A stretch of DNA of 64,000 nt from Arenimonas caeni (lineage in GTDB: Bacteria; Pseudomonadota; Gammaproteobacteria; Xanthomonadales; Xanthomonadaceae). Position numbers and translations under genes: made by a program. Within the stretch, counting starts at the first letter, position 1. Each line of letters opens with the position of its first letter. Location of the stretch: NCBI RefSeq assembly GCF_003024235.1, contig NZ_KZ679089.1, positions 62,001-126,000 on the forward strand, given 5' to 3'. Below, piece after piece: positions 2,623 to 35,598 of the stretch. The notes under the pieces were generated by a model, which did no database searches, was not told the DNA's origin, and saw nothing but the letters and a program-made list of their open reading frames with translations.

Positions 2623-5414
2623 GCACCGGCGACCTCTCGCTCTGGCGGGCCGCCGACGAGATCTTCGACCGCCTGCTCGACCTGCCCGCCGACGAGCGCG
2701 AGGCCGCGCTGGCGGCGATGGCGCTCGACCCGGTGCTCGAAGCGCACGTGCGCCGGCTGGTGGCGGCGCACGACCGCGCCGACGGCCCGCTCGACCCCGC
2801 CGGGCCCGACGCCGAACTCGAAGGGCGCTGCATCGGCCGCTGGGTGCTGGAGGACGAAATCGGCCGCGGCGGCATGTCGGTGGTCTACCGCGCCCGCACC
2901 GACGAAGGCGGCGAAACCCGGGTGGCGGCGATCAAGCTGCTCACGCTCGGCGCCCTGGTCGCCGGCGGCGTGCAGCGCTTCAAGCGCGAGCAGGCGATCC
3001 TGGCGCGGCTGCAGCACCCGCACATCGCCGGCCTGCTCGACTGCGGCGTCACCGAGGACGGCACGCCCTGGCTGGCGATGCCGCTGGTGGACGGCCAGCC
3101 CATCGACCAGTGGTGCGACGAGCGCAACCTCGGCGTCGGCGCCCGCGTGCAGCTGATGCTCGACGTCTGCGACGCCGTCGCCTACGCCCACCGCAACCTG
3201 GTGATCCACCGCGACATCAAGCCCAGCAACGTGCTGGTGGATCGCGAAGGTTACGTGCGCCTGCTCGACTTCGGCATCGGCGGCATGCTCGAAAGCCGCC
3301 AGGCCGGCATGACGCTCACCCGCATGCTGGCCTGGACGCCGCAGTACGCCGCCCCGGAGCAGTTCAAGCTGGCGCCGGCCTCGACGGCGATGGACGTCTA
3401 CGGCCTGGGCGCGCTGCTCTTCCGGCTGCTCACCGGCCGGCCGCCGCGCGAGGGCCCGCCCGACGGCCAGCCGGTGACGCTGCCCTCGCGGGCCTGCCTG
3501 GACGACGACACGGCCACGGCGCCGCTGCGCCGCGCGGCTTCGAAGGCGCTGCGCGGTGACCTCGACGCGATCGTGCTAAAGGCGCTGGCGCCCGACCCCG
3601 AGGACCGCTACCGCTCGCCCGACGCGCTGGCGCGCGACCTCGGCAACTGGCTGCGCGACCGTCCGGTGCGGGCGCGCGGCTCGGGCACCTTCTACCGCCT
3701 GCGCTGCTTCCTGCGCCGGCACCGCGCCGGCGTCGCCGGCGGCATCGTGCTGGCGCTGGTGCTCGGCGGCGGCCTGGCGGCCACGCTCTGGCAGGCCGAG
3801 CGCGCCCGCGCCGAGGCGGCGCGGGCCACCGCGGTCAAGGACTTCCTGGTCGAACTGTTCGAATCGGCCGACCCCGAAGTCGAGGCCGGGCGCGTGCCCG
3901 ACACGCTCACCGTGCTCTCGCGCGGCGCCGGCCGCGTGCACCGGGAGCTGGCCGGCGAACCGGCGCTGGCGGCCGAACTGCTGCACACCATCGGCCGCGT
4001 GCAGCTGCACCTGGGCGACTACGCAGCCAGCCGCGAGCAGCTGCTGGCCGCGTACGAACTCGGCCGCCGGCACAAGCTGCCGGCGCCGGCGCGCGGCCGC
4101 ACCCTGCTGCAGCTCGGCGTGCTGGGCATCGAGACCGGCCGCTACGACGACGCCCGCGACTGGCTGCTGCGGGCGCGCGACACGTTGGCGGGGCTGAAGG
4201 ATGCCGAGTCGCGCTCGGCGCTGGCCTACGTGCACATGTACCTGGGCAGCGTCGCGACCTCGCTGGGCGAACACGAAACGGCGCTGGCCGAGCTGGCGCA
4301 GGCCGAAGCCATCGAGTCCACGCTCGAGCCCGACGGCCGGCGCCGCGGGCACCTGCGGATCCACCAGGCCCAGTCGCTGCGCGCCGCCGGGCGTGCCCGC
4401 GAAGCCTGGGACGTGCTGCGCGAGGCCGTCGACCGCATTCCCGAGCCGGGCATCGCCGACCTGCCGCTGCTGACCGCGCTGGGCAGCGTCGCCGGCGACC
4501 TGGGCCGGCACGAGGAAGCCGAGCGCTATTTCCGGCGCGTGGTGGAAACCATGCGCGCGGCCTACCCGCCGGGCAGCCCGGCCCTGGCCACGCCGCTCAA
4601 CAACCTGAGCCTGGCGATCAGCGCGCGCGGCCGCCACCGCGAGGCCGAGCCGGTGCTGCGCGAGGCGCTGGCGCTTCGCCGGGCCTCGGTGGGCAGCGAC
4701 AGCGCCCGGCTGGCGCCGGTGCTGTCGAACCACGGCACGATGCTGATGCGCCTGGGCCGCGCCGACGAAGCCGTGGCCGCCTTCGACGAGGCGCTGGCGG
4801 CCGCCGAGGCCGGCCTCGGCCCGCTGCACGAGCGCAGCCTGATGGTGCTCTCGTTCAAGTGCCAGGCGCAGGCGCTGGCCGGCAGGGCCGACGAAACGGC
4901 GGCCTGCGAGTCGCAGCTGCTGGCGCGGCTGCCGCGCCGGGCCGCGATGCCGGGCGCACGCCAGGCCGCGGACGACAACCTGCGCCGGCTGGCGCTGGCG
5001 CGGCTGCTGCTGGGCCAGCCCGGGCCGGCGCTGGCCCTGCTCGGCCGGATGTCGCCGGCGCCGGAAACCGACGCGCCCGACCGCGCCCGGCTGCAGGCCG
5101 AGGCCTGGCGCCTGCTGGCCCACGCCCTGCAGGGCCTGTCCGAACCCGCGGCCGCGGCCGCGCTGGCCGCGCACCTGCCCGCGTTGGCCGACGGCAGCTT
5201 CGAGCAGGCCGACCTGCGCCTGGCCCTGGCTGCCCAGGCACGCGTGTCCGGCGATGTCGCGACTTCCGAGGCGCGGCTGCGCGAGTTGCGCACGCCCTTC
5301 CTCGAAGGCGAGGTGCCGGCGCGGGTGGAGTCGATGGTCGCCCGCGTGCGAAATCTCGCACCGCATCCGGTAAAAGACGGAATCGATCCTCGGCAAAGAA
5401 CCGGAAAGCGATGA
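2619..5414 (+). CDS. Membrane-anchored Ser/Thr protein kinase with C-terminal TPR repeats
   Basis: This 931-residue Hanks-type kinase has its glycine loop GRGGMSVVY near residue 83, the ATP lysine in AAIKLL near 105, the catalytic loop HRDIKPSN near 196 and DFG near 218, so it should be active. One hydrophobic helix at about residues 368-390 (AGVAGGIVLALVLGGGLA) separates the cytosolic kinase from a long helical region of TPR-like repeats. By topology that region would be periplasmic. The gene starts inside the sigma-factor stop and its own stop overlaps the next ATG. This gives a three-gene coupled operon of sigma factor, kinase and lipoprotein, suggesting an envelope-sensing pathway. Confidence 0.93.
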   Translation: MSTGDLSLWRAADEIFDRLLDLPADEREAALAAMALDPVLEAHVRRLVAAHDRADGPLDPAGPDAELEGRCIGRWVLEDEIGRGGMSVVYRARTDEGGETRVAAIKLLTLGALVAGGVQRFKREQAILARLQHPHIAGLLDCGVTEDGTPWLAMPLVDGQPIDQWCDERNLGVGARVQLMLDVCDAVAYAHRNLVIHRDIKPSNVLVDREGYVRLLDFGIGGMLESRQAGMTLTRMLAWTPQYAAPEQFKLAPASTAMDVYGLGALLFRLLTGRPPREGPPDGQPVTLPSRACLDDDTATAPLRRAASKALRGDLDAIVLKALAPDPEDRYRSPDALARDLGNWLRDRPVRARGSGTFYRLRCFLRRHRAGVAGGIVLALVLGGGLAATLWQAERARAEAARATAVKDFLVELFESADPEVEAGRVPDTLTVLSRGAGRVHRELAGEPALAAELLHTIGRVQLHLGDYAASREQLLAAYELGRRHKLPAPARGRTLLQLGVLGIETGRYDDARDWLLRARDTLAGLKDAESRSALAYVHMYLGSVATSLGEHETALAELAQAEAIESTLEPDGRRRGHLRIHQAQSLRAAGRAREAWDVLREAVDRIPEPGIADLPLLTALGSVAGDLGRHEEAERYFRRVVETMRAAYPPGSPALATPLNNLSLAISARGRHREAEPVLREALALRRASVGSDSARLAPVLSNHGTMLMRLGRADEAVAAFDEALAAAEAGLGPLHERSLMVLSFKCQAQALAGRADETAACESQLLARLPRRAAMPGARQAADDNLRRLALARLLLGQPGPALALLGRMSPAPETDAPDRARLQAEAWRLLAHALQGLSEPAAAAALAAHLPALADGSFEQADLRLALAAQARVSGDVATSEARLRELRTPFLEGEVPARVESMVARVRNLAPHPVKDGIDPRQRTGKR

Positions 5415-6043: not shown

Positions 6044-8338
<2,295 letters not shown>

Positions 8339-8343
8339 GAAAC

Positions 8344-8358
8344 GGGGTCAGGTTCAGC
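8344..8358 (+). repeat. Solitary half of a GGGGTCAGGTTCA hairpin element
   Basis: The 13-mer GGGGTCAGGTTCA here matches the arm start of the complete hairpin at 10320-10393. It has no inverted partner and abuts the hairpin at 8363, as if one element had been partly replaced by another. Confidence 0.6.
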
Positions 8359-8362
8359 GGCC

Positions 8363-8446
8363 GGGGACAGGTGCATTTAAGGCGCGGGCCGGGCTTGCTT
8401 CGTTACCGAAGCTCTCCCGGCCCGCGCCTTAAATGCACCTGTCCCC
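8363..8446. repeat. REP-like palindromic hairpin element, 31-bp perfect arms
   Basis: Arms at 8363-8393 and 8416-8446 are perfect reverse complements of 31 bases, starting GGGGACAGGTGCATTTAAGG, around a 22-base loop that itself contains CTTCG-TTAC-CGAAG. The left arm begins GGGGaCAGgTgCAttt, a layout shared with the hairpin at 10320 and, more loosely, the one at 13194. No T-run follows on either side, so it is not a standard terminator. It covers the 3' end of the STAS gene and supplies that gene's stop codon. Confidence 0.9.
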
Positions 8447-8835
8447 GATCTGGCGTATTCGTCGTCGCCCTCGAGGACCTTGCGCTGCATGGCGTCGAGG
8501 TAGGCGTCGGCCTCGGCCACCGAGGCGAAGATCTCGTTCATCGGCACCGCCTTGACCACGTCGAAGACCTTCTGGATCTGCGGCTGCGGGTTGACCACCA
8601 GCACCTTGCCGCCGCGGGCCGCCAGCGCCTTGCGCGCCTTGAAGATCGAGCGCACGTCGGCCGAGCTGATGTATTCGAGCCCGGCCAGGTCGAGCACCAG
8701 CGATTTGTTCATCGTCTCGAGCACCGGCGCCAGCAGGCGGTCGAGCTCCTGGTAGGTGTGGGTGTCGAGGCGCCCGGCGATGGCGACGCGCTGGCTGCCG
8801 TTGGCGGCGGGCTCGATCTGGACGCTCAGGCTCAT
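8377..8835 (-). CDS. STAS-domain anti-sigma-factor antagonist with repeat-derived C-terminal tail
   Basis: This 152-residue STAS protein is the RsbV/SpoIIAA-type partner of the adjacent kinase. GRLDTHTYQELD lies early and the phospho-site region EYISSADVRSIFKARKAL near residues 55-72; one of the paired serines is the expected phosphoacceptor. The STAS fold ends around residue 115. The last 25 or so residues, after EGDDEYARS, are encoded by the hairpin at 8363-8446, and the TAA stop lies in its far arm. The original C-terminus was therefore probably replaced by the element. The start overlaps the end of the upstream kinase gene by four bases. Confidence 0.9.
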   Translation of the reverse strand: MSLSVQIEPAANGSQRVAIAGRLDTHTYQELDRLLAPVLETMNKSLVLDLAGLEYISSADVRSIFKARKALAARGGKVLVVNPQPQIQKVFDVVKAVPMNEIFASVAEADAYLDAMQRKVLEGDDEYARSGTGAFKARAGRASVTKQARPAP

Positions 8836-9260
8836 GCGGGGCTCCCTTTCGGTTCGGTGCGCAGCACCACGCGCAGGATGTTGTGTGGTTCTTCACGACG
8901 ATAGCTGACCTCCTCGGCCAGCTCCCGGATCAGGTGCACGCCCAGGCCGCCGATCGGCCGATCCCGGATGTCGGCGTCGAGGTCGGGCGCGGGGCGTTCG
9001 AGCGGGTTGTAGGCGAGGCAGTCGTCCCTGAACTCCAGCGTGACCACGCCATCGCGCACGTCGATGCCCACCCTGATCTCGTGTTCGCGGCCTTCGATGC
9101 GGCCGTACTCGAGCGCGTTGCAGACCACCTCTTCGGCGACCAGCTGCACGTCGTGCGCCACCAGGCCGCCCACGCCCTCGCGCGCGAGCACGCCGTCGAT
9201 GGCGGCGGCCAGGTCGGCCAGCTGGCTTTCTTCCTGCGGCACCCGGAGCCGGATCTGCAT
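8832..9260 (-). CDS. RsbW-like anti-sigma-factor serine kinase (HATPase)
   Basis: This 142-residue GHKL ATPase shows the N-box EEVVCNALEYG (about residues 43-53), the Asp-containing FRDDCLAYNPL (about 76-86) and the glycine-rich GGLGVHLI (about 103-110). These are the usual ATP-binding motifs of RsbW/SpoIIAB-type kinases, which phosphorylate a STAS partner. It lies two bases after the phosphatase remnant and overlaps the STAS gene, so the three form a partner-switching operon. The regulated target (a sigma factor or other effector) is not encoded next to it. Confidence 0.9.
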   Translation of the reverse strand: MQIRLRVPQEESQLADLAAAIDGVLAREGVGGLVAHDVQLVAEEVVCNALEYGRIEGREHEIRVGIDVRDGVVTLEFRDDCLAYNPLERPAPDLDADIRDRPIGGLGVHLIRELAEEVSYRREEPHNILRVVLRTEPKGSPA

Positions 9261-9262
9261 GC

Positions 9263-10277
9263 TCAGTCGTCCCCCTGTCCTTCGCGCCGGTAATGCAGGG
9301 CCAGCACGGTGATGTCGTCGGACTGCGGCGCCTCGCCCGCGTGCGCCTGCACCGCCGCCAGCAGCGCCTCGCAGTGCCCGGCCGGGCTGCGCGGCGTGGC
9401 CAGCACCGCGAGCAGGCGCTGCTCGCCGAAGGCCTGGTCGGCCAGGTCGAAGGCCTCGGTGACGCCGTCGGTATAAAGCAGCAATCCATCGCCGGGTTCA
9501 AGCCGGCCACTCCAGGTTTCGAACGTGGCGTCGGCCTCGAAACCCAGCGGCGGGCCACCCGGAAGCGTCAGCCAAGCCGGCGCGGCGTCGCCGCGCAGCA
9601 GCACCGGCGGCTCGTGGCCAGCGCTGGCCATCTCCAGCTCGCCGGTGGCCAGGTCGAGCTTGCCGCAGACCACGGTGGCGAACATGCGGGTGTCGTTGCC
9701 TTCCACCAGGTGGCGCGGCCTCGGCCAGGGCCCGCGCCGGCGAGCCGCCCAGCTTGGCCGCCACCTCGAGCACGGTGACGGTGCGGGCCATGAACAGCGC
9801 CGCCGGCACGCCCTTGTCGGAAACGTCGCCGATGACGAACCACAGCCGGCCGTCGCCCTCGCGGCGGCGGTACCAGTCGAAACCCGGATCGTCGGGGGCC
9901 AGCCGGCCGGGTTCGATGATGACCATGACGCCGGCGATGTCGGGGTCGGCGTCGAGCGTGGCCGACATCAGCGCGCGCAGGTCGAAAGGCTGGCGGCCCA
10001 GGCCCGAGGCGGCGCCGGCCAGGGTGCGGCCGCTGACTTCGACCGACTCGAGCGTGGCGGCCAGGCCGCCGGCCGACTGCTGGGCCAGGCCGTTCATCTC
10101 GGTGCGGGCATTGGCCAGCAGCACGCCGCGGACCGCGACGTAGAAGATCAGGGCCACCGCCACCCGCAGGAGCGCGCTGGTCAGGCTGGTCCAGAGCACC
10201 AGCCGCGTGCGCAGGCTGCGCCGCCAGGGGATCTGGCGGGCGGGCAACGCGGCAGGGTTGTTCCCGGCTGGCTGCAT
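9263..10277 (-). pseudogene. SpoIIE/RsbU-type PP2C phosphatase, internally deleted and frameshifted
   Basis: The 5' part (ATG at 10277) encodes a basic N-terminus, a transmembrane helix (TSALLRVAVALIFYVAVRG) and the start of a periplasmic sensor region ending FDWYRRREGD. It then passes directly into GRLWFVIGDVSDKGVPAALF, which belongs in the middle of a PP2C/SpoIIE domain. The rest of the sensor, any HAMP segment and the first PP2C metal-binding strand (usually near VGGDF) are missing. Near 9718-9722 the frame then shifts: after A-L-A-E-A the expected R-H-L-V-E-G-N-D continues in another frame, as from loss of two bases. The C-terminus (SAGHEPPVLL, LLLYTDGVTEA, SDDITVLALHY) is normal. It would have been the activating phosphatase of the downstream module. 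Confidence 0.85.
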
Positions 10278-21696: not shown

Positions 21697-22458
21697 TCAG
21701 GACTTAAGCCGCCAGCCGCTCAGGAAAATGGCCCGCACCGCGAGCAGGCACAGCAGCAGGAAGCCGATGATGGCCGCGAAGCTCACCACCACGTCCACGT
21801 CCGACTGCCCGAAGAAGCTCCAGCGGAAGCCGCTGATCAGGTAAACCACCGGGTTGAGCAGCGCGATCTTCTGCCACACCGGCGGCAGCATGTCGATCGA
21901 GTAGAACGCGCCGCCCAGGAAGGTCAGCGGCGTCATCACCATCAGCGGGATCACCTGCAGCTTCTGGAAGTCGGTGGCCCACAGGCCGATGATGAAGCCG
22001 AACAGGCTGAAGCTCACCGCCGTGAGCACCAGGAACAGGGCCATCGCCAGCGGGTGGGCGATCTCGTAGTCGACGAAGAAGCGGGCCGTGAGCAGGATCA
22101 GCAGGCCCAGCACCACCGACTTGGTGGCCGCCGCGCCGACGTAGCCCAGCACCGCCTCCACCCAGCCCACCGGCGCCGACAGCAGCTCGAAGATGGTGCC
22201 GGCCCACTTGGGCATGTAGATGCCGAAGGCGGCGTTGGAGATCGACTCGTTGAGCAGCGAGAGCATGATCAGGCCGGGGATGATGAAGGCCCCGTAGCTC
22301 ACCCCGCCCACTTCGCCCATGCGCGCGCCGATGGCGGCGCCGAACACCACGAAGTACAGCGAGGTGGTGAGCACCGGCGAGACGATCGACTCGCCCAGCG
22401 TGCGGAAGGTGCGCGCCATCTCGAAGCGGTAGATGGCGCTGACGGCGTGCCAGTTCAT
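21697..22458 (-). CDS. ABC-2 type transporter permease
   Basis: This 253-residue permease has six predicted membrane helices and the ABC-2 family features [30 protein letters not shown] and [17 protein letters not shown]. It starts inside the stop of the ATPase gene (four-base overlap), so the two make one exporter, probably as a 2+2 complex. The close relation to YadH/NodJ-type permeases suggests drug or polysaccharide-type export, but the substrate cannot be read from the sequence. Confidence 0.93.
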
Positions 22459-23408
22459 GGCGTGCCCGCCTTGCCGCGGTGGACCAGGTTCACGAAGATC
22501 TCCTCGAGCGAGCTCTCTTGGGTGTTGAGGTCGCGGAAGTCGATGCCATGCTCGGCCAGGCGGCGCAGCAGGGTGGCGATGCCGGTGCGCTCGCCCTGGA
22601 TGTCGAAGGTGTAGACCAGCGACAGGCCGTCTTCCGACAGCTCCAGCGGCTGCCCGGCCAGCTCCGGCGGGATCGCCGCCAGCGGCGCCTGCAGGTGCAG
22701 GGTGAGCTGCTTCTTGCCCAGCTTGCGCATCAGCGCGTCCTTCTCGTCCACCACCACCAGCTCGCCGTGGTTGATCACGCCGATGCGGTCGGCCATCTCC
22801 TCGGCTTCCTCGATGTAGTGCGTGGTGAGGATGATGGTGGTGCCTTTCCCGCGCAGTTCGCGCACCAGGCTCCACATGTCGCGGCGCAGCTCGACGTCCA
22901 CGCCGGCGGTGGGCTCGTCCAGGAACAGGATGGCCGGCTCGTGCGCCAGCGCCTTGGCAATCAGCACCCGGCGCTTCATACCGCCCGACAGCGTCATGAT
23001 CTTGGCGTCGCGCTTGTCCCACAGGCTCAGCGAGCGCAGCACCTTTTCCAGGTGCGCGTCGTCGCGCGGCTTGCCGAACAGGCCGCGGCTGAGCCGCACG
23101 GTGGCCCACACGGTCTCGAAGGAATCGGTGTTCAGCTCCTGCGGCACCAGGCCGATCTTCGCGCGCGCCTGGCGGAACTCGCGCACGATGTCGTGGCCGT
23201 CGGCCAGCACCGTGCCGCGGCTGGCGTTGACGATGCCGCAGACGATCGAGATCAGCGTGGTCTTGCCGGCGCCGTTGGGCCCGAGCAGGGCGAAGATCTC
23301 GCCGCGGCGGATGTCGAGGTCGACCGACTTGAGCGCGACGTGGCCGCTGGCGTAGGTCTTGCCCACGCCGCGGATGGAGAGGATCGGGTCGCCGGACGGC
23401 TGGTTCAT
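22455..23408 (-). CDS. ABC transporter ATP-binding protein (ABC-2 / YadG-like)
   Basis: This 317-residue ATPase has Walker [10 protein letters not shown] (about residue 41), signature LSGGMKRRV (about 142), Walker [13 protein letters not shown] (about 162) and the switch His in [13 protein letters not shown]-terminal extension of about 85 residues follows, as in the YadG/CcmA-like subgroup. The start at 23408 (MNQPSGDP) is consistent with homologues and is ten bases from the upstream TPR gene's stop. It energises the permease encoded next. Confidence 0.95.
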
Positions 23409-23418
23409 CGGCGGGGCG

Positions 23419-24912
23419 TCACCAGGGTGCGTGGATAGGCAGTTCGAGCAGGCGGCCGTGGCGGTTGATGGCGGCCTGCACGTCCTCGCGTTCGAGCATC
23501 GCACGCCAGCGTGCATCCCGGGCCGGCTCGAGCGAGGCCGAGTCGCGGAAGCGCTGGACGGAATAGAGCGTGTCGCCGCGCTCCACGGGGTTTTCCAGGT
23601 TGGCGACCAGGGCCGCGGCCGCGGCATCGTCCTGGCCGCGGTCGAGCAGGGCCTCGGCGTACACCGACTCGCCCTGTTCGCGGTTGTCGCGCAGGTAGCC
23701 GAGCGCCGCGTCCGCCGCTTCCTGGTCGCCCAGGGCCAGCGCCGCGCGGTGCTGCACGCTGGCCTGCACCATGCGTCCGAACGGGCTCATCCGGCCGACC
23801 GACGCCGCCACCTCCAGGGCTTCGCGCGGCTGGCCGGCGCTGACCAGGTGATGGGCCAGGGTGAGCACCTGGCTGACGTTGTCCTGGCCATCCTCGCGGG
23901 TGGCAGCGGCCCGCCGGTACATCGCGATCGCTTCGTCCTTGCGGCCCAGCCGCACCAGCGCCTCGCCGGCGCGGTCGTAGAGCCAGGACAGCTGCTCGTG
24001 CTGGTCCACGTAGACGTCGCCCTTGAACGGGTTGTCGGCGATGGTCGCGGCGACCTGTTCGGCCAGGGCCACCACGTCCTCGTTCTCGCCCAGCATCAGC
24101 AGTGCCGATGCGTACTCGGCCTGGATGCCCACGACGCCGCTGTCGAGCAGGGCGCGGGCGCGAAGGTCGTCGGCGCGGCGCCGGGCCAGGCGCGGCAGCG
24201 CCTCGGCCGTGAGCGCGGGGTCGCGCACCGCGTCGTAGCGGCGGTCGGCCAGCAGCTCGATGACCAGGCGCGGGTGGGTGATGCCGGCCACCACTTCACG
24301 GGCCGCGGCCTGCTCGCCGCGTGCCAGGTGCTGGAGCGCCAGGTCCAGCCACAGCTCGTCGGCGGGGCCCGTCCAGGCCCACTCGAAGCCGCCTTCGTAC
24401 AGGGTCTTGAGCAGGGCGTAGCGCGCCGGGGAATCGAAATCGGTGGCCCACACGGCCTGGGCCACGTCGAGGTCGTGGTCCTGGCGAACCTGCCGGGGCC
24501 AGCGCCGGAAGGCCTCGCGGAAGGTGTCGGCCACTTCGTCGTGCAGGCCCAGGTCGCGCGCGATGTAGGCGTGCATGGCCCAGTCCTCCAGCTCCGCGTC
24601 GGCGAAGCCGGTCGTCAGGCGGGCATGGCGCAGGCCGCGCGGCAGGTCGCCGGACCAGGCGGCGTAGCGGGCGATGTAGGCGTGCAGGCGTCGCTGCGCC
24701 GTCGGCGCGAGGGACGCGCCTTCCGGCAGCTCGAGCGCCTCGGCCAGCCGGTCGGCGGCCGCCGAGAAATCCTCCCGGCCTGCGGCCTGGTCGGAAGCGC
24801 GCACCTTCGCCAGCACGGCGTCCGGCACCGGGGCCGGCTGGGGCGCCTGCGCGGCGCCGGCGCCGGACAGCGCCAGCAGGCCGGCAAGCGCGAGTGCGCG
24901 CAGGGCGGTCAC
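23419..24912 (-). CDS. Exported TPR-like repeat protein
   Basis: This 497-residue protein starts at a GTG inside the stop of the DUF3297 gene (GTGA overlap). A Sec signal peptide ([20 protein letters not shown]) leads into a body made almost wholly of helical TPR-like repeats, for example [20 protein letters not shown] and [20 protein letters not shown]. It is probably periplasmic and a protein-interaction scaffold. It sits between DUF3297 and the ABC exporter, and all read the same way with tiny gaps, so a common transcript is likely. The partner is unknown. Confidence 0.82.
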
Positions 24913-27039: not shown

Positions 27040-28803
27040 CTAGCTCGTCGTGGCGCCGGCCAGGCCCGGATCGCTGGTGCCGTGGGTGCGCACGCGGTCG
27101 CGCCCGGCATGCTTGGCCTGGTAGAGCGCGTCGTCGGCGCGGCTGAGCAGGGTCAGGAAGTCATGGCCGCACTGGCGCGTGCCGACCACGCCGAAACTGG
27201 CGGTGACGGTGAACGAATGCCCGGTCGGCGCGGTGTCGATGGCGGCGATGCGCTTGCGGCAGGCCTGCGCCAGCGCCACCGACGAGGCCAGCTCGCAGCC
27301 GACGAGCAGGATGGCGAACTCCTCGCCGCCCAGGCGGCCGAGCACGTCGTGCTTGCGGCAGACCTCGCCGCAGGCGCGCGCGACCTCCTTGAGCACCCAG
27401 TCGCCGACGGCGTGCCCGAAGCGGTCGTTGATGGACTTGAACTCGTCGAGGTCGAACATCACCAGGCCGGCGTCCTCGCCGTTGCGCTTGCCCAGGGCCA
27501 GCAATTCCTCGGCGCGGTGGCTGAAACTCATGCGGTTGGGGATGCCGGTGAGCGCGTCGGTTTCCGCCAGGCGCCGGAACAGGCGCTGCGAACGCTGCGC
27601 CCGCCAGGCCCAGGTGCCGATGGCGCCGAGCAGCACCACCAGCAGCGCGAGCAGCAGGTGGTTGATGCGCGACGACAGCGTCGCCGCCTGTTCGCGCAGC
27701 TGCAGCAGCTGGTTCTCGCGGTTGAGCAGGTCGATCGCCTGTTCCTTCTCGCGCGTCTCGGCCATCACCTGCTGGTAGGCCAGGGCCCGCGCGGACACCT
27801 CGTCGAGGTGAGCCTTGTCGGCCGCGGCGTAGTTGATGTGGTGGGCCAGGGCGGCGGCGTTGTCGCCGCGCTGCAGCGCCACCTCGTAGAGCACCCGGTG
27901 CGCGGCCACCAGCTGGGCCGAACCGCGGATGCCCGCCGCATGGTCGAGCGTACGCCGGGCGAAGGTTTCGGCCTGCACGTAGTCACCGGTCGCGAAGCTC
28001 ATCTCGGCCAGATTCGAATACACAAAGCCGATCAGCGAGGGGTAGCGCGTGGCCTCGATCTCGGGCAGGTGCCGCATGAGCAGGGCGATGCCTTCGTTCC
28101 GCTCGCCGTGCTGGAAGGTCACGCGTGCCTTGTACATGCGCCCGTAGTTGGTCATCACCGGCTCGCCGGCGGCGATGCATCGGCTGATCTGCTCGTCGAT
28201 GAAGGCCATCCGGTCGGCCAGCTTGCGCTGCCCCCAGAGCGACTCGAGCAACAAGGCGCCACCGAAGCAGGCCGTGCGGCCCGTCGGCTGGTCGGCGAGC
28301 ATGAGCTCGGCGAAACGCTGGCCCTCCTCGAACTGCCCGACCAGGTTGGAGATGGTGCTGGCCGCGGCCCAGCCGTGGTGCCTGATCTCGGGATTCCCGA
28401 TCTCGTCGATGATGGCGAGCATCTCGTTCATGTAGCGCACGCCCTCGCTGAACTCGCGGGTGACCGCCATCGAGTTGACCATCAGCGCCGCGGCGCGGAA
28501 GCGCACCTCCACGTGCTCCGAGCTTTCGAACAGTTCGCGTGCCGCCTCGACGCCAAGGTCGAAGCGCCCGCTGTAGGACAGTTGGTAGGCCTTGAGGTAG
28601 GCCAGTTCGTCGCGCTGGCGCGTCGAGGCCGAATCCAGGCTGGCGTTGAGCTGGCCCAGCAGTTCGTTGAACTGCTGCGGGTCGGCGCTGCGCACGGCCT
28701 CGGCCTGGCGCAGCATGGCCTCGAAGGCCGGCGACGCACCGGCGCGTGGCGATGCCCCGAGGAGCATCGCCACGGCCATGGCGGTGGCGTACCAGGCGCG
28801 CAT
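27040..28803 (-). CDS. Diguanylate cyclase with periplasmic TPR domain
   Basis: This 587-residue protein has a signal peptide (MAVAMLLGASPRAGA), a helical TPR-like sensor region (about 25-345), a coiled-coil stretch (REKEQAIDLLNRENQLLQLR), a membrane helix (LLLALLVVLLGAIGTWAW, about 388-405) and a complete GGDEF domain (about 425-575). The active site RLGGEEF is intact, as are FDLDEFKSINDRFGH and an inhibitory RxxD (RKHD, five residues before GGEEF). It should make c-di-GMP in response to a periplasmic cue. It is the third gene of the run methyltransferase, precursor, cyclase, starting 20 bases after the precursor stop. Confidence 0.93.
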   Translation of the reverse strand: MRAWYATAMAVAMLLGASPRAGASPAFEAMLRQAEAVRSADPQQFNELLGQLNASLDSASTRQRDELAYLKAYQLSYSGRFDLGVEAARELFESSEHVEVRFRAAALMVNSMAVTREFSEGVRYMNEMLAIIDEIGNPEIRHHGWAAASTISNLVGQFEEGQRFAELMLADQPTGRTACFGGALLLESLWGQRKLADRMAFIDEQISRCIAAGEPVMTNYGRMYKARVTFQHGERNEGIALLMRHLPEIEATRYPSLIGFVYSNLAEMSFATGDYVQAETFARRTLDHAAGIRGSAQLVAAHRVLYEVALQRGDNAAALAHHINYAAADKAHLDEVSARALAYQQVMAETREKEQAIDLLNRENQLLQLREQAATLSSRINHLLLALLVVLLGAIGTWAWRAQRSQRLFRRLAETDALTGIPNRMSFSHRAEELLALGKRNGEDAGLVMFDLDEFKSINDRFGHAVGDWVLKEVARACGEVCRKHDVLGRLGGEEFAILLVGCELASSVALAQACRKRIAAIDTAPTGHSFTVTASFGVVGTRQCGHDFLTLLSRADDALYQAKHAGRDRVRTHGTSDPGLAGATTS

Positions 28804-28822
28804 GCCGGTCCGGCCGGTCGCC

Positions 28823-29122
28823 TCAGTGCAGGCCGGTGCGGCGCACCGACTCGGACGGCTCGTCGTCCGCCGGGCTGTCGCGGTCTTCTTGCTCGTCGTC
28901 CTTGCGCTTGTTGTCGTCGTCGGCCGGGAACAGCATGCAGATCATCTTCGGGCGGCCGCCCAGCAGCCCGCCCAGGGCGTCGGCATCACGCGCCAGCAGG
29001 GCCTCGCGCGCGGCATCGTCGAGCGCCAGCCCGTCCACGGCGGCTTCGAAGGCCTCGCCTTCCAGGGATGCGAGCGTCGGGTCTGCGCCCAGGCGCTCGA
29101 GGAATTGGATTACGTTCGACAT
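28823..29122 (-). CDS. Putative split-borosin RiPP precursor peptide
   Basis: This 99-residue acidic peptide follows the methyltransferase gene by 27 bases. A strong site (AAGGGGAG, six bases before ATG) sets the start. Residues 3-56 form a helical domain (NVIQFLERLGADPTLASL, then DDAAREALLARDADALGGLL) like the borosin-binding domain of SonA from Shewanella. A short hydrophobic segment MICMLFPADDD (about 60-70) sits where the methylated core lies in such substrates, followed by a highly acidic tail (residues 71-99). Backbone N-methylation in the MICMLF segment is inferred, not shown. There is no signal peptide. A plain unknown acidic protein is the alternative, but the gene pairing argues against it. 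Confidence 0.8.
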   Translation of the reverse strand: MSNVIQFLERLGADPTLASLEGEAFEAAVDGLALDDAAREALLARDADALGGLLGGRPKMICMLFPADDDNKRKDDEQEDRDSPADDEPSESVRRTGLH

Positions 29123-29149
29123 CACTTGCTCCCCTTGGTGGTGGTTGGA

Positions 29150-29962
29150 TCAGTGGGTGGCGGCAGCAGCCAGCCTTTCGGCTTCGTCGAGCTCCGCCAG
29201 CCGAGCCAGCAGCGCGTCGTTGCGCTCGGGCTTGCGGCAGGGCGGCAAGACCAGCGTGGTCTGGGCATCGAGCCGGGCCCCCGGCAGCCCGTGCAGCGGC
29301 AGGCGTTCGATGCGCGGGCGATGGATCGGCAAGGTGGCCGCCTCGTACAGAAGGCACTCATGGTCCAACGGGTAGTCGCCGGCCAGCAGGTCAACCAGCA
29401 GCTGGCGATGCGCGGGGCCGGTGGCGAAGCGCCGGAAGCCGCGGTCGCCGGCGACGCCGGGTTGCCAGACCACCAGCCAGGCGCTGGTGTCGATGCGGCG
29501 CCGGTAGAACATCAGCTGGCTGGCCTCGAAATGCTGGCAGCCCGATTCGCCCGGGTCGATGCCCAGGTCGGCGTAAAGGCAGTCCTCGGCCGAGATGCCG
29601 GGTTCCATCACGGCCTGGAAGCCTTCCTCGCGGGCGAGGGCGACGGCGCGATGCGGGGCCTGGGCGAACACGCCCGGGTGGCCGTAGAACGCGCCGCAGA
29701 CGCGCTTGCCGGCCCGGACCTCGGCCAGCATCGCCTCGACCATCTCGCGGTAGGTATCGGTGCGGGCCTTGCCCTCCCGGTAGAGCGGCTGCAGGCTGCG
29801 CACGTCCGGGTGCATCTGCTGCACCCACAGTTCGACCAGCGGGTCGGACACGGCCACGAACACCACGTCGGCCGCTTCGATGTGGCCGCGCGCGCGTGGC
29901 GCGAGGTGTGCACCCAATGTCATGCCCAGGCCGACGCAGGCCAGGCTGCCGCGCTTGTCCAT
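29150..29962 (-). CDS. Borosin-type peptide alpha-N-methyltransferase (tetrapyrrole-methylase fold)
   Basis: This 270-residue SAM-dependent enzyme has the tetrapyrrole-methylase fold but carries the borosin signatures: LACVGLGMTLGAH, VSDPLVE, the Tyr/Arg cluster LYREGKARTDTY (Tyr61, Arg67, Tyr71), FYGHPGVFAQAPHRAVALAR (92-111, with Tyr93), PGISAEDCLYADLGIDP and VVWQPGV. Compared with OphMA of omphalotin biosynthesis, the four residues important there (Tyr66, Arg72, Tyr76, Tyr98) all occur at a constant offset of five. There is no fused C-terminal core, so the substrate is separate, as in the SonM/SonA pair. The likely substrate is the peptide encoded 27 bases downstream. I start at 29962 (MDKRGSLACVG). 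Confidence 0.92.
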   Translation of the reverse strand: MDKRGSLACVGLGMTLGAHLAPRARGHIEAADVVFVAVSDPLVELWVQQMHPDVRSLQPLYREGKARTDTYREMVEAMLAEVRAGKRVCGAFYGHPGVFAQAPHRAVALAREEGFQAVMEPGISAEDCLYADLGIDPGESGCQHFEASQLMFYRRRIDTSAWLVVWQPGVAGDRGFRRFATGPAHRQLLVDLLAGDYPLDHECLLYEAATLPIHRPRIERLPLHGLPGARLDAQTTLVLPPCRKPERNDALLARLAELDEAERLAAAATH

Positions 29963-30099: not shown

Positions 30100-31731
30100 A
30101 TGAGCACCGACACCGAGATCCTCAGCCGCCTCGAGACCCTCAACGCCATCGGCGTGGCCTTGTCGCACGAGCGCGACCTGGCCACCCTGCTCGAGCGCAT
30201 CCTCGAGGCCGCGCGCAACTTCGCCGATGCCGACGGCGGCACGCTCTACCTGGTCGAGGGCGACGTGCTGCGCTTCGAGGTGCTGCGCAGCGGCTCGCTG
30301 GGCTATTTCATGGGCGGGCGGCACGGCGAGCCGATCAGCTTCCCGCCGATCCCCATGCACCGCGAGGACGGCAGCCCGAACGACTCGATGGTGGTGGTGC
30401 ATGCCGCGCTCACCGGCCGCACCGTCAACATCGCCGACGCCTACGACGCCGAGGGCTTCGACTTCAGCGGCACGCGGGCCTTCGACGCGCGCACCGGCTA
30501 CCGCTCGAAGTCCTTCCTGACCGTGCCGATGAAGGACCACGACGGGCGGGTGATCGGCGTGCTGCAGCTGCTCAACGCCATCGGCCCCGACGGCGGCATC
30601 CGCCCCTTCGGCCCGGCCATCCAGCAGCTGGTGGAGTCGCTGGCCTCGCAGGCGGCGATCGCGCTCAACAACCGCCGGCTGGTCGACCAGCTCGAGAACC
30701 TGTTCGAAGCCCTGATCAACCTGATCAACACCGCCATCGACGAGAAGTCGCCCTACACCGGCGGCCACTGCGAGCGCGTGCCGGCCCTGACCACCCTGCT
30801 GGCCGACGCCGTGGCGCGCACCACGGTGGGCCCGCTGGCCGACTTCAGCATGGACGAGGCCGACCGCTACGAGCTCAAGATCGCCGGCCTGCTACACGAC
30901 TGCGGCAAGATCACCACGCCGGTGCACGTGGTGGACAAGGCCACCAAGCTGCAGACGCTGTTCGACCGCATTGAGCTGGTGGACACGCGCTTCGAGGTGC
31001 TCAGGCGCGACGCCGAGATCGCCCACCTGCGCGGCGAGCTCGACGCCGCCGCCTACGCCGCGCGCCTGGAGCAGCTCGACGACGACCGCGCCGCGGTGCG
31101 CCAGGCCAACACCGGCGGCGAGTTCATGGACGATGGCCGCATCGACGCGCTGCGCCGCATCGCCCGCTACACCTGGCGTGGCCCCGACGGCCGCGAGCAG
31201 CCCTTCCTCTCGGCCGACGAGCTGGAAAACCTGTGCATCCGCCGCGGCACGCTCAACGAGGCCGAGCGCGGCATCATCAATCACCACATCACCATGACCA
31301 TCCGCATGCTCGAGGCGCTGCCCTGGCCGGCGCACCTGCGCAACGTGCCCGAGTACGCCGGCGGCCACCACGAGCGCATGGACGGCAAGGGCTACCCGCG
31401 CGGCCTGACCCGCGAGCAGATGAGCGTGCAGGCGCGGGTGATGGGCATCGCCGACATCTTCGAGGCCCTCACCGCCGCCGACCGGCCCTACAAGTCGGGC
31501 AAGACGCTCAGCGAATCGCTCGCCATCCTCGGCCGGATGAAGCTCGACCATCATGTCGACCCGGACCTGTTCGACGTGTTCCTGCGCGAGCGCGTCTACC
31601 TCGAATACGCCGTGCGCTTCCTGCCGCCGGAGCAGATCGACGCGATCGACTGGGCGAAGATCCCCGGCGTCTCCGCCGAACTGGCCGCCGAACTGGCCGC
31701 CGCCGACGCCTGCGCCCCCGCCTCTCTGTAG
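30100..31731 (+). CDS. GAF / HD-GYP domain protein, probable c-di-GMP phosphodiesterase
   Basis: This 543-residue protein has an N-terminal GAF domain (about 20-190) and an HD-GYP domain with HDCGK (about 266-270) and the full HHERMDGKGYP (about 422-432), as required for c-di-GMP hydrolysis. About 150 residues separate the two motifs, against about 60 in common HD-GYP proteins, so the domain carries an insertion (including LRRDAEIAHLRGELDAA). It is cytosolic with no membrane helix. It is divergent from the borosin-type operon across a 137-base gap. Its TAG stop is formed by a GTAGGAGCGC sequence that matches the arm of the repeat at 37388. Confidence 0.93.
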   Translation: MSTDTEILSRLETLNAIGVALSHERDLATLLERILEAARNFADADGGTLYLVEGDVLRFEVLRSGSLGYFMGGRHGEPISFPPIPMHREDGSPNDSMVVVHAALTGRTVNIADAYDAEGFDFSGTRAFDARTGYRSKSFLTVPMKDHDGRVIGVLQLLNAIGPDGGIRPFGPAIQQLVESLASQAAIALNNRRLVDQLENLFEALINLINTAIDEKSPYTGGHCERVPALTTLLADAVARTTVGPLADFSMDEADRYELKIAGLLHDCGKITTPVHVVDKATKLQTLFDRIELVDTRFEVLRRDAEIAHLRGELDAAAYAARLEQLDDDRAAVRQANTGGEFMDDGRIDALRRIARYTWRGPDGREQPFLSADELENLCIRRGTLNEAERGIINHHITMTIRMLEALPWPAHLRNVPEYAGGHHERMDGKGYPRGLTREQMSVQARVMGIADIFEALTAADRPYKSGKTLSESLAILGRMKLDHHVDPDLFDVFLRERVYLEYAVRFLPPEQIDAIDWAKIPGVSAELAAELAAADACAPASL

Positions 31732-34311: not shown

Positions 34312-34467
34312 TGAGGATCTCCGGTGTGGGCCAGGCGGGGATCGTCCCGGCCGGTCAGGGCCATGTTCGACCGTGAAGATGGCTTTTCGCGGGCAGGCCG
34401 CCCCCGCTTGACTGGCGTCGTCCGCTGCCTGACCTTGTCGGGCAATGGATCCCGGACCCCACCCGCC

Positions 34468-35598
34468 ATGAGCCCCGACGGCACCGCCCGCGGGCACCCG
34501 GCGCTGCGCGCCTGGCGGCTGTCGCAGATCGTGGCCGATACCTACGAGCGCTCGAAGCTGGCGGGTTTCCTGTACCTGTTCGGCTGGGTGGTGGTGGGCT
34601 GGCTGGCCGATGCGCACCGGATCGCGCCGGTGCCGGCGGTGGCGATGGCGGTGGTGTTCCTGGCCCTGGGCGTGATGCGCCTGGCGATGCGGCCGCCGCC
34701 GCGCGAGGACGAAGCCGCCAACCGCCGCTGGCTGCGCAACTACGCCTGGGTGCTGCCGTTGGCGCCGCTGGCCTGGGCCGGCCTGCAGGCCTGGCTGCTG
34801 CTCGACGCGCGCTTCAGCCAGCCGGTGCGGATGGCCTCGCTGGTGGCCACCATCGGCTACGCCACCGTGTTCGTGAACGTCTACACCACCGTGCGGCATT
34901 TCGCCGCGGTGGGCGCCGGCGTGCTGTTCCTGCCGCCGCTGGTGCTGGTCTGGCTCGACCCTGGCCAGCAGGCGCTGGCCGTGGCGATGACCTTTTACGC
35001 CGTCTATCTGGTGGGCGCACTGGTGCGCACCCACGCCGAATACCGACGCCGGCTGGACCTGGACGTGGCGCTGCGCGAGCAGCGCGATCTCTACGAAGGC
35101 CTGAGCCGCACCGATCCGCTGACCGGCCTGGCCAACCGCCGCCAGTTCACCGCCCGGCTCGATGAACTGGCCGCGCGCGCCGGCCGGGGCGGCCCGGGCT
35201 TCACCCTGGTGATGATCGACGTCGACCACTTCAAGCGCGTCAACGACGACCACGGCCACCTCGCCGGCGACGCCTGCCTGGTCGGCCTGGCGCAGCGGCT
35301 GCAGGCGGTTTTCCCGCCCGACTGCAGCCTGCTGGCGCGGCTGGGCGGCGAGGAGTTCGGCGTGCTGCTCGAGGGCGATGCCGCCAGCGCGGCCGCATCC
35401 GCCGAGGCCCTTCGCCGCAGCCTGGCGGCGGGGGCCATCGACTGCGGCGGCGTGGTGGTGCGGGTGACGGTGAGCGTGGGCGTCGCCGGTTTCGACCCCG
35501 TGCGGCATGGTGACGGCGAGGGCCTTTACCGCGCCGTCGACCGCGCGCTCTACGAGGCCAAGGGGGCGGGGCGCGACCGCCTGGCGATCGCCTCCTGA
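34468..35598 (+). CDS. Membrane diguanylate cyclase (GGDEF)
   Basis: This 376-residue protein has about six membrane helices (residues 30-185), a short coiled linker (YRRRLDLDVALREQRDLYEG) and a complete GGDEF domain (about 215-375) with DPLTGLANRRQF, IDVDHFKRVNDDHGH and RLGGEEF. The inhibitory RxxD motif is absent (PDCS at that position), so product inhibition at this site is not expected. I place the start at 34468. TTGACT at 34408-34413 could be a -35 box but the matching -10 is poor. The membrane part may sense a signal in the lipid bilayer. Confidence 0.92.
   Translation: MSPDGTARGHPALRAWRLSQIVADTYERSKLAGFLYLFGWVVVGWLADAHRIAPVPAVAMAVVFLALGVMRLAMRPPPREDEAANRRWLRNYAWVLPLAPLAWAGLQAWLLLDARFSQPVRMASLVATIGYATVFVNVYTTVRHFAAVGAGVLFLPPLVLVWLDPGQQALAVAMTFYAVYLVGALVRTHAEYRRRLDLDVALREQRDLYEGLSRTDPLTGLANRRQFTARLDELAARAGRGGPGFTLVMIDVDHFKRVNDDHGHLAGDACLVGLAQRLQAVFPPDCSLLARLGGEEFGVLLEGDAASAAASAEALRRSLAAGAIDCGGVVVRVTVSVGVAGFDPVRHGDGEGLYRAVDRALYEAKGAGRDRLAIAS

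Follow-up and report, generated by a model that had tools for sequence, protein, structure and literature searches.

A split-borosin locus in Arenimonas caeni inherited as a unit with a TPR-sensor diguanylate cyclase: a candidate peptide-signalling system

What ties a diguanylate cyclase to the genes of a split borosin pathway? The question is raised by a 64,000-nucleotide stretch of Arenimonas caeni contig NZ_KZ679089.1 (positions 62,001 to 126,000, hereafter the window), in which three minus-strand genes stand in series: a borosin alpha-N-methyltransferase (NMT), 27 bases further on a precursor peptide, and after another 19 bases a cyclase predicted to make cyclic di-GMP (c-di-GMP). An earlier sequence-only reading had described this series, with an HD-GYP phosphodiesterase gene divergent from it, and the coordinates of the open reading frames (ORFs) agree with that layout. 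It had linked the three genes by their order only; the link now stands on stronger ground, namely co-occurrence across genomes and fusion of cyclase and NMT in 31 of 139 loci of the same family. Comparative sequence analysis shows that the NMT, the precursor and a cyclase composed of signal peptide, TPR sensor, transmembrane helix and GGDEF domain form one inherited unit. The reading that we prefer, with a rough probability of 0.46, is that of a split-borosin signalling locus, in which a periplasmic TPR sensor would bind the backbone-methylated peptide as its ligand and so set c-di-GMP.

The identity of the methyltransferase was assessed by a phmmer search of the PDB, which matched the window enzyme to SonM with an E value of 1.2e-75 and to dbOphM/OphMA at 6e-50 to 7e-45, whereas the best corrin methylase reached only 0.0043. 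The enzyme is 50% identical to SonM over 254 residues. Its Y61, R67 and Y71 align with Y58, R67 and Y71 of SonM, residues whose roles are given in the text available from PMC8429565, and its Y93 sits inside a YGHPGVF block common to the two proteins. A separate NMT homologous to SonM and OphMA, with the catalytic Tyr/Arg/Tyr set, places the locus with the split (type IV-like) borosins, and both the borosin NMT identity of the 270-residue protein and the Tyr61/Arg67/Tyr71 set claimed earlier are upheld by these scores and pairings. The comparison confirms a SonM-type borosin N-methyltransferase, for which methylation of the precursor is predicted. The enzyme could instead have been a corrin or uroporphyrin methylase lying beside an unrelated small ORF, and Pfam does assign it to TP_methylase, but the search scores (rather than a tree) reject that identity, and a homologous precursor with a borosin-binding domain (BBD) is present at 133 of the 139 same-family NMT loci; we regard this alternative as barely conceivable.

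The precursor was harder to place by similarity searches. The window peptide had no match in Pfam or NCBIfam and, searched alone, none to SonA in the PDB. A profile of 10 precursors of the window type matched seven PDB sequences, all of them SonA-type and all weakly (E 0.06-0.37), and a 15-row profile that included SonA-like rows matched SonA at 3e-22. The AlphaFold2 model, of modest confidence (mean predicted local distance difference test score, pLDDT, 63.6), has helices at residues 3-13, 15-18, 23-30, 36-43 and 47-53; the binding domain of SonA is described as residues 1-53 with five helices (PMC8429565, in the text available). Foldseek returned only three matches to the model, two of them SonA chains and the third LigA (E 5.7-8.4, TMt 0.41-0.70). 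The precursor consensus, drawn from 85 same-family loci, has a BBD ending in LLGGR, then MMCMIFAPDEEEP, then an acidic tail. A strict core expression fits only 70 of 107 split precursors, and the core is therefore described here by the consensus; in those 70, D and E make up 39% of the tail residues. The precursor of a related locus, L151, contains four repeats of C-x-V-x-TPE (for example YFCWVATPEEE), and the repeat unit was therefore marked as core. A five-helix binding domain with a hydrophobic core behind it, as in split borosins, was thus found, through matches with weak E values, and the helical binding-like domain and hydrophobic segment claimed in the sequence-only reading are borne out to that extent. 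Profiles and model support the assignment of the 99-residue peptide as a borosin precursor with a SonA-like BBD, a hydrophobic core and an acidic tail.

The protein of the third gene consists of a signal segment, a helical-repeat sensor, a transmembrane helix and a GGDEF domain that contains the motifs RKHD and GGEEF. Pfam identified GGDEF at 1.4e-42, with TPR matches below threshold, and the structural model shows the sensor as a helical repeat (mean pLDDT 85.6). A GGDEF domain with an intact GG[DE]EF motif makes the protein a diguanylate cyclase by sequence, with c-di-GMP synthesis predicted. The sensor itself had no credible match in the PDB by phmmer, and among the best 50 Foldseek matches listed for the cyclase model only GGDEF-type proteins appeared, none for the sensor. 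In related loci the cyclase is either separate from the NMT (split) or joined to it (fused). Hydropathy indicates a signal segment and a transmembrane helix each in 152 of 156 split cyclases, and in 30 and 31, respectively, of 31 fused ones. Motif scans found an intact GG[DE]EF in all 33 fused cyclases and in 136 of the 137 split ones; RxxD occurs in 92 of the 137 split cyclases and in none of the 33 fused ones, so the fused cyclases look active but appear to have no RxxD inhibition site. The sole GG[DE]EF exception among the split cyclases, in L209, has a degenerate GAAEF beside NMT and precursor; judging from the motif, the sensor is perhaps kept there without cyclase activity.

Whether the three genes belong together was asked of the genus and then of the family. 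A search of the genus for the sensor half of the cyclase, with E up to 1e-15 accepted, found it as a single copy in each of the 13 NMT-positive genomes and found it in 1 of the 14 NMT-negative ones. At family level the NMT was sought in 395 genomes with E up to 1e-20 and was found in 132 of them, at 139 loci, all classified with profiles built from these same loci. A partner cyclase lies within 3 kb at 132 of the 139 loci: as a split TPR-GGDEF gene downstream in 98, joined to the NMT in a single fused protein in 31, and cut or broken in three (L043, L119 and L141). A few of the 98 carry a further cyclase copy. Four same-family loci have a cyclase upstream and the sensor also downstream (L053, L149, L159 and L146, whose downstream copy is cut by the contig end), L137 and L153 have an additional copy upstream, and the TPR part of the fused protein in L246 lies beyond its contig end. 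The seven partnerless loci are two at contig ends (L051 and L140, the genome of L051 having a precursor and cyclase on another contig, L243), three with distant enzymes of 39% identity (L065, L066 and L248), and L073 and L151.

Counted by genome, with the NMT and sensor sets taken as the same 395 genomes and at most four sensor candidates scored in each, 117 genomes have both NMT and sensor, 15 the NMT only, two the sensor only and 261 neither. The sensor is thus present in 117 of 132 NMT-positive and 2 of 263 NMT-negative genomes (Fisher p 1.8e-80, in a test that ignores relatedness). Ten of the 15 NMT-only genomes escaped the sensor search, which does not reach the more distant sensor of the fused form that they carry; the other five are G022, G043 and three genomes with distant enzymes. 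The sensor-only genomes are G193, which is 81% complete, and G147, the one intact exception. Co-conservation of the cyclase in related genomes, which the sequence-only reading had proposed as a check, therefore holds in both genus and family.

The association extends beyond the family. NMT-bearing genomes numbered 9 of 369 at class level, 15 of 398 at phylum level and 56 of 121 at order level, each count including the genome of the window and some genomes already counted. From these, 57 loci outside the family were fetched (class 8, phylum 13, order 36), which gave 196 classified NMT loci in total. Among the 57, a split TPR-GGDEF gene is downstream in 24 (one also with a TPR kinase), upstream in 14 and divergent in one; two loci are fused, three have a TPR kinase only, and five have a GGDEF protein without detected TPR. 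The TPR-GGDEF-NMT fusion accounts for 33 of the 196 loci, and in one of them, L057 (7047-9587(+)), Pfam finds TPR, GGDEF and TP_methylase in a single protein. In the 14 outside-family loci with an upstream, unfused cyclase, this gene directly precedes the NMT, and 13 of them have the precursor ahead of the cyclase, which is the order of the fusion; the 14th, L235, has the precursor downstream with a second cyclase. The output can also differ: a TPR sensor with HisKA-HATPase-REC stands beside the NMT in L161 and L162 (Pfam) and in L210 and L211 (local profile).

Changes of layout were counted on a FastTree phylogeny of 197 NMT domains, using 190 rows and after the mixed loci L053, L146, L149, L159 and L235 had been relabelled. 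The layout changes at least 12 times and the presence of a partner four times, and the arrangement switches between downstream, upstream and fused at least five times with the partner kept; fusion arises once and kinase output twice. In L202, whose NMT is 77% identical to SonM, a SonA-like precursor is followed by a TPR-GGDEF gene, and L207 and L208 (67 and 69% identical to SonM) have the same arrangement. The founding split-borosin branch therefore appears to share the partner, on the evidence of these relatives and not of the Shewanella oneidensis locus itself.

How, then, might the peptide and the cyclase be connected? In the signalling reading, the precursor would dock in the cytoplasm, through its N-terminal domain, on the NMT, and this enzyme would methylate amides of the peptide backbone near MICMLF within the hydrophobic core, both steps following the SonM/SonA precedent. 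The methylated product, trimmed or not, would leave the cytoplasm, and the TPR domain that the partner cyclase has in the periplasm would bind it, exit and binding together being the most likely step. Binding would then switch the cytoplasmic GGEEF domain and set c-di-GMP, with a presumed sign of effect, and in a few relatives a similar sensor would drive a histidine-kinase relay instead. On this view the locus would encode, in a Gram-negative bacterium, a signal together with its receptor, the signal being a ribosomal peptide methylated on its backbone. Three features give most weight to a ligand-receptor relation: retention of the sensor, variation of the outputs and the predicted periplasmic position of the sensor. 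A wider proposal, that this is a family of Gram-negative peptide communication with a backbone-N-methylated ribosomal peptide as pheromone, a periplasmic TPR receptor and an exchangeable output (GGDEF or histidine-kinase relay), the split borosins of this branch being mainly signals and not toxins, is put forward as tentative and open to serious doubt.

Loci with several copies bear on the relation between peptide and sensor. In 20 loci the precursor, the cyclase or both are present in more than one copy. L088, L103 and L144 each combine a single NMT with two precursor-cyclase pairs whose cores differ, and L149 comes close to this arrangement. Precursor-cyclase pairs can thus duplicate together, although loci that gained cyclases alone are more frequent. 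Whenever neighbouring cyclases were compared (19 of 19 comparisons), their GGDEF domains resembled each other more than their sensors did (for example 80 versus 43% in L149). Distances between cores follow those between sensors with a partial r of 0.24 (reached in 0 of 300 permutations), against 0.12 for core and GGDEF and 0.07 for core and NMT (26 of 300 permutations); the positive control, BBD and NMT, gave 0.27. As far as sequence distances can tell, these correlations favour a tie between peptide and sensor, without singling out the core.

Several observations weigh against a released ligand with its own receptor. The distances between BBD and sensor gave a partial r of 0.26, and since the BBD also follows the sensor, the signal between core and sensor lacks specificity. 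Parts that evolve fast may correlate trivially, and a sensor commonly changes faster than a catalytic domain. Among the multi-copy loci, 12 of 20 gained only cyclases and three only precursors (L053 is mixed), so strict pairing is a minority pattern, and the second cyclase of L144 is split over two ORFs. Relabelling the five mixed loci reduced the layout changes on the tree from 15 to 12 and the order changes from 8 to 5, which lowers its support for retention of the partner. L073 and L151 have an NMT without a partner, and neither TPR sensor, GGDEF nor kinase is nearby in 8 of the 57 outside-family loci. The intact exception G147 (L240, G147:C3:28000-46000) has a TPR-GGDEF gene near an HD-GYP gene, and neither an NMT nor a precursor was found with it; this orphan cyclase is possibly a remnant or an independent use of the sensor. 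Exit from the cytoplasm is also unexplained, because the three-gene unit contains no exporter (not all loci were searched for exporters) and neither precursor nor NMT has a signal peptide by eye. Lastly, the fusion places NMT and GGDEF both in the cytoplasm and equally fits direct intracellular coupling.

On the question of export, L151 (in G022) is informative. It encodes a precursor (4902-5336(+)), a C39-peptidase ABC exporter (6537-8684(+)), an HlyD protein (8681-9979(+)) and an NMT 67% identical to that of the window, the layout of a conventional exported ribosomally synthesized and post-translationally modified peptide. By analogy, it shows a precedent for an export route in a relative of the window NMT. 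It has no cyclase, and as the sole exporter-bearing locus it also counts against the signalling reading.

These points leave room for other connections. The cyclase might control the peptide: the periplasmic TPR domain would respond to an external cue and the cyclase would govern methylation, either through contact or through local c-di-GMP, which would make the borosin an output of c-di-GMP signalling. The position of the NMT at the GGDEF C-terminus in all 33 fused loci, each without RxxD and with GG[DE]EF, suits this idea, as do the 12 multi-copy loci in which cyclases were gained and no precursor; doubling of precursor and cyclase around a single NMT in L088, L103 and L144, and replacement of GGDEF by a kinase while sensor and NMT stay, speak against it, and we consider it unlikely, if still a serious contender. 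Somewhat less probable again is that the precursor, methylated or not, acts as an intracellular subunit, the BBD peptide on the NMT toggling GGDEF with no product released. A small precursor, the missing signal peptide and exporter, and a fused form that joins docking site and GGDEF in one chain would all be expected of such a subunit, and protein partners of cyclases do exist, in SiaC-SiaD (the top Foldseek match of the cyclase model) and in RcbA-RcbB (text available from PMC12282931). This explanation accounts poorly for the periplasmic sensor, which is kept while the output becomes histidine kinase and REC in four loci, and for the four-core precursor with its C39/HlyD exporter in L151, a sign that the product of a close relative of the NMT is released.

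A cyclase that lies beside the borosin genes by chance or inheritance, functionally unconnected to them, is in our view highly improbable. All loci except L212, a phylum-level match with no partner, come from one class, so their counts are not independent; against this stand joint presence and joint absence, fusion, at least five changes of order with retention of the partner, and the different behaviour of the HD-GYP gene in the same neighbourhood. The signalling reading is compared below with systems already described.

RRNPP receptors are cytoplasmic TPR proteins with a helix-turn-helix or phosphatase output. The window sensor, with its signal segment, transmembrane helix and GGDEF output, does not belong among them: it is predicted to be periplasmic, has a histidine kinase as output in some relatives, and its peptide has a modifying enzyme. 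What it shares with the RRNPP systems of Firmicutes is adjacency of pro-peptide and receptor genes, a functional analogy with no sequence membership (PMC10075063, in the text available). In RcbA/RcbB, a TPR-GGDEF cyclase repressed by its TPR domain is controlled by a protein partner from the same operon; RcbA is a TPR protein and not a borosin precursor, and no methyltransferase is mentioned in the available text (PMC12282931). SonM/SonA of S. oneidensis, a type IV split borosin, resembles the window locus in its catalytic residues, separate precursor, five-helix domain and hydrophobic core, while the window precursor differs from SonA in its longer acidic tail and FPAD core; neither 'GGDEF' nor 'operon' occurs in the main text of that paper (PMC8429565).

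The components are therefore known in published texts, split borosins from PMC8429565 and TPR-GGDEF cyclases from PMC12282931. The sequence-only reading knew of no description of a borosin pathway tied to c-di-GMP turnover. A link to a GGDEF domain is not entirely new, as PMC11395268, in its Figure 1 legend on borosin architectures (types V-X after Imani 2022 and Cho 2022), has the entry 'GGDEF, GGDEF-sequence-containing domain'. On the strength of that legend, the fused TPR-GGDEF-NMT form is probably published and is probably the architecture meant. The receptor reading, like the near-exclusive co-occurrence, the kinase variants and the two-pair loci, was not found in the literature searched, Imani 2022, Cho 2022 and Lee 2024 lying outside it; nor was the commoner split form, in a search that included the available text of PMC11285071. 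Apart from PMC11395268, nothing in that literature connected a borosin with c-di-GMP.

With 117 of 119 sensor-positive genomes in one family carrying the NMT, the sensor is nearly confined to NMT genomes and offers split borosins a direct, testable partner, which makes a candidate signalling system of an orphan modification pathway. Backbone N-methylation makes peptides permeable and stable. If the signalling reading is true, a class of TPR cyclases would gain a candidate ligand, and this modification would be placed in bacterial communication.

Table 1. Features of the borosin-cyclase locus and its divergent neighbour, in window coordinates
Feature	Coordinates	Strand	Basis
Borosin alpha-N-methyltransferase (NMT), SonM-type, TP_methylase fold, 270 aa	29150..29962	-	Pfam TP_methylase 1.4e-21; PDB search; catalytic residues
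Borosin precursor, 99 aa	28823..29122	-	ATG at 29122, stop at 28823; 27 bases after NMT; homologs in other loci
Precursor residues 1-53, borosin-binding domain (BBD), five helices	28964..29122	-	AlphaFold2, modest confidence
Precursor residues 60-68 MICMLFPAD, predicted core	28919..28945	-	Consensus over 85 loci; repeat units in L151 precursor
Precursor residues 69-99, acidic tail	28826..28918	-	D+E content of related precursors
TPR-sensor diguanylate cyclase, 587 aa	27040..28803	-	Pfam GGDEF 1.4e-42; TPR_12 4e-4, below cut-off; model
Predicted periplasmic TPR sensor domain	27679..28734	-	Between signal peptide (residues 1-23) and transmembrane helix (~380-402); hydropathy, model
GGEEF active-site motif, cyclase residues 492-496	27316..27330	-	Motif scan
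RKHD product-inhibition site (I-site), cyclase residues 483-486	27346..27357	-	Motif scan
GAF/HD-GYP phosphodiesterase, divergent neighbour, judged outside the unit	30100..31731	+	Pfam; distribution

The divergent HD-GYP gene had been tied to the same c-di-GMP turnover in the sequence-only reading, a tie that is not borne out: it behaves as a genus-level neighbour. Within the genus, 11 of the 13 genomes with an NMT and 3 of the 14 without one have the gene, and it lies near the NMT in only 11 of the 196 classified loci (L035-L045), all from the genus of the window. L241 and L242 keep it without NMT or TPR cyclase. As its presence follows the genus and not the NMT, it was rejected as a fourth member of the unit. 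Elsewhere in the window, an ORF at 34324-35598(+), about 4.4 kb from the NMT, has a GGDEF-like end (tblastn match 41%), which makes three c-di-GMP-type genes in that part of the window. An ABC-2-type ATPase/permease pair lies at 21697-23627(-), about 4 kb beyond the cyclase; it is not supported as a dedicated exporter, the permease recurring only in L036, L174 and the NMT-less L241 among loci that span a few kb.

Some unusual loci were seen outside the family. At order level, L232, L252, L254, L255 and L256 encode a GGDEF protein in which no TPR was detected, about 1.8 kb upstream of the NMT, the last three being grouped with the first two by equal spacing alone. Between GGDEF gene and NMT, L232 and L252 contain a BBD peptide and an ORF of 524-552 aa that looks like an FAD amine oxidase by eye, possibly an extra tailoring enzyme. 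Tandem NMT domains occur in one 540-aa ORF of L218 (G1206:C52), with a BBD peptide just upstream. L179-L182 have distant NMTs (33-38%), near which no TPR sensor, GGDEF or kinase was found; ORFs of 61-77 aa lie just upstream of the NMT in L179, L180 and L182, and L179 and L180 have an ORF downstream that is transporter-like by eye.

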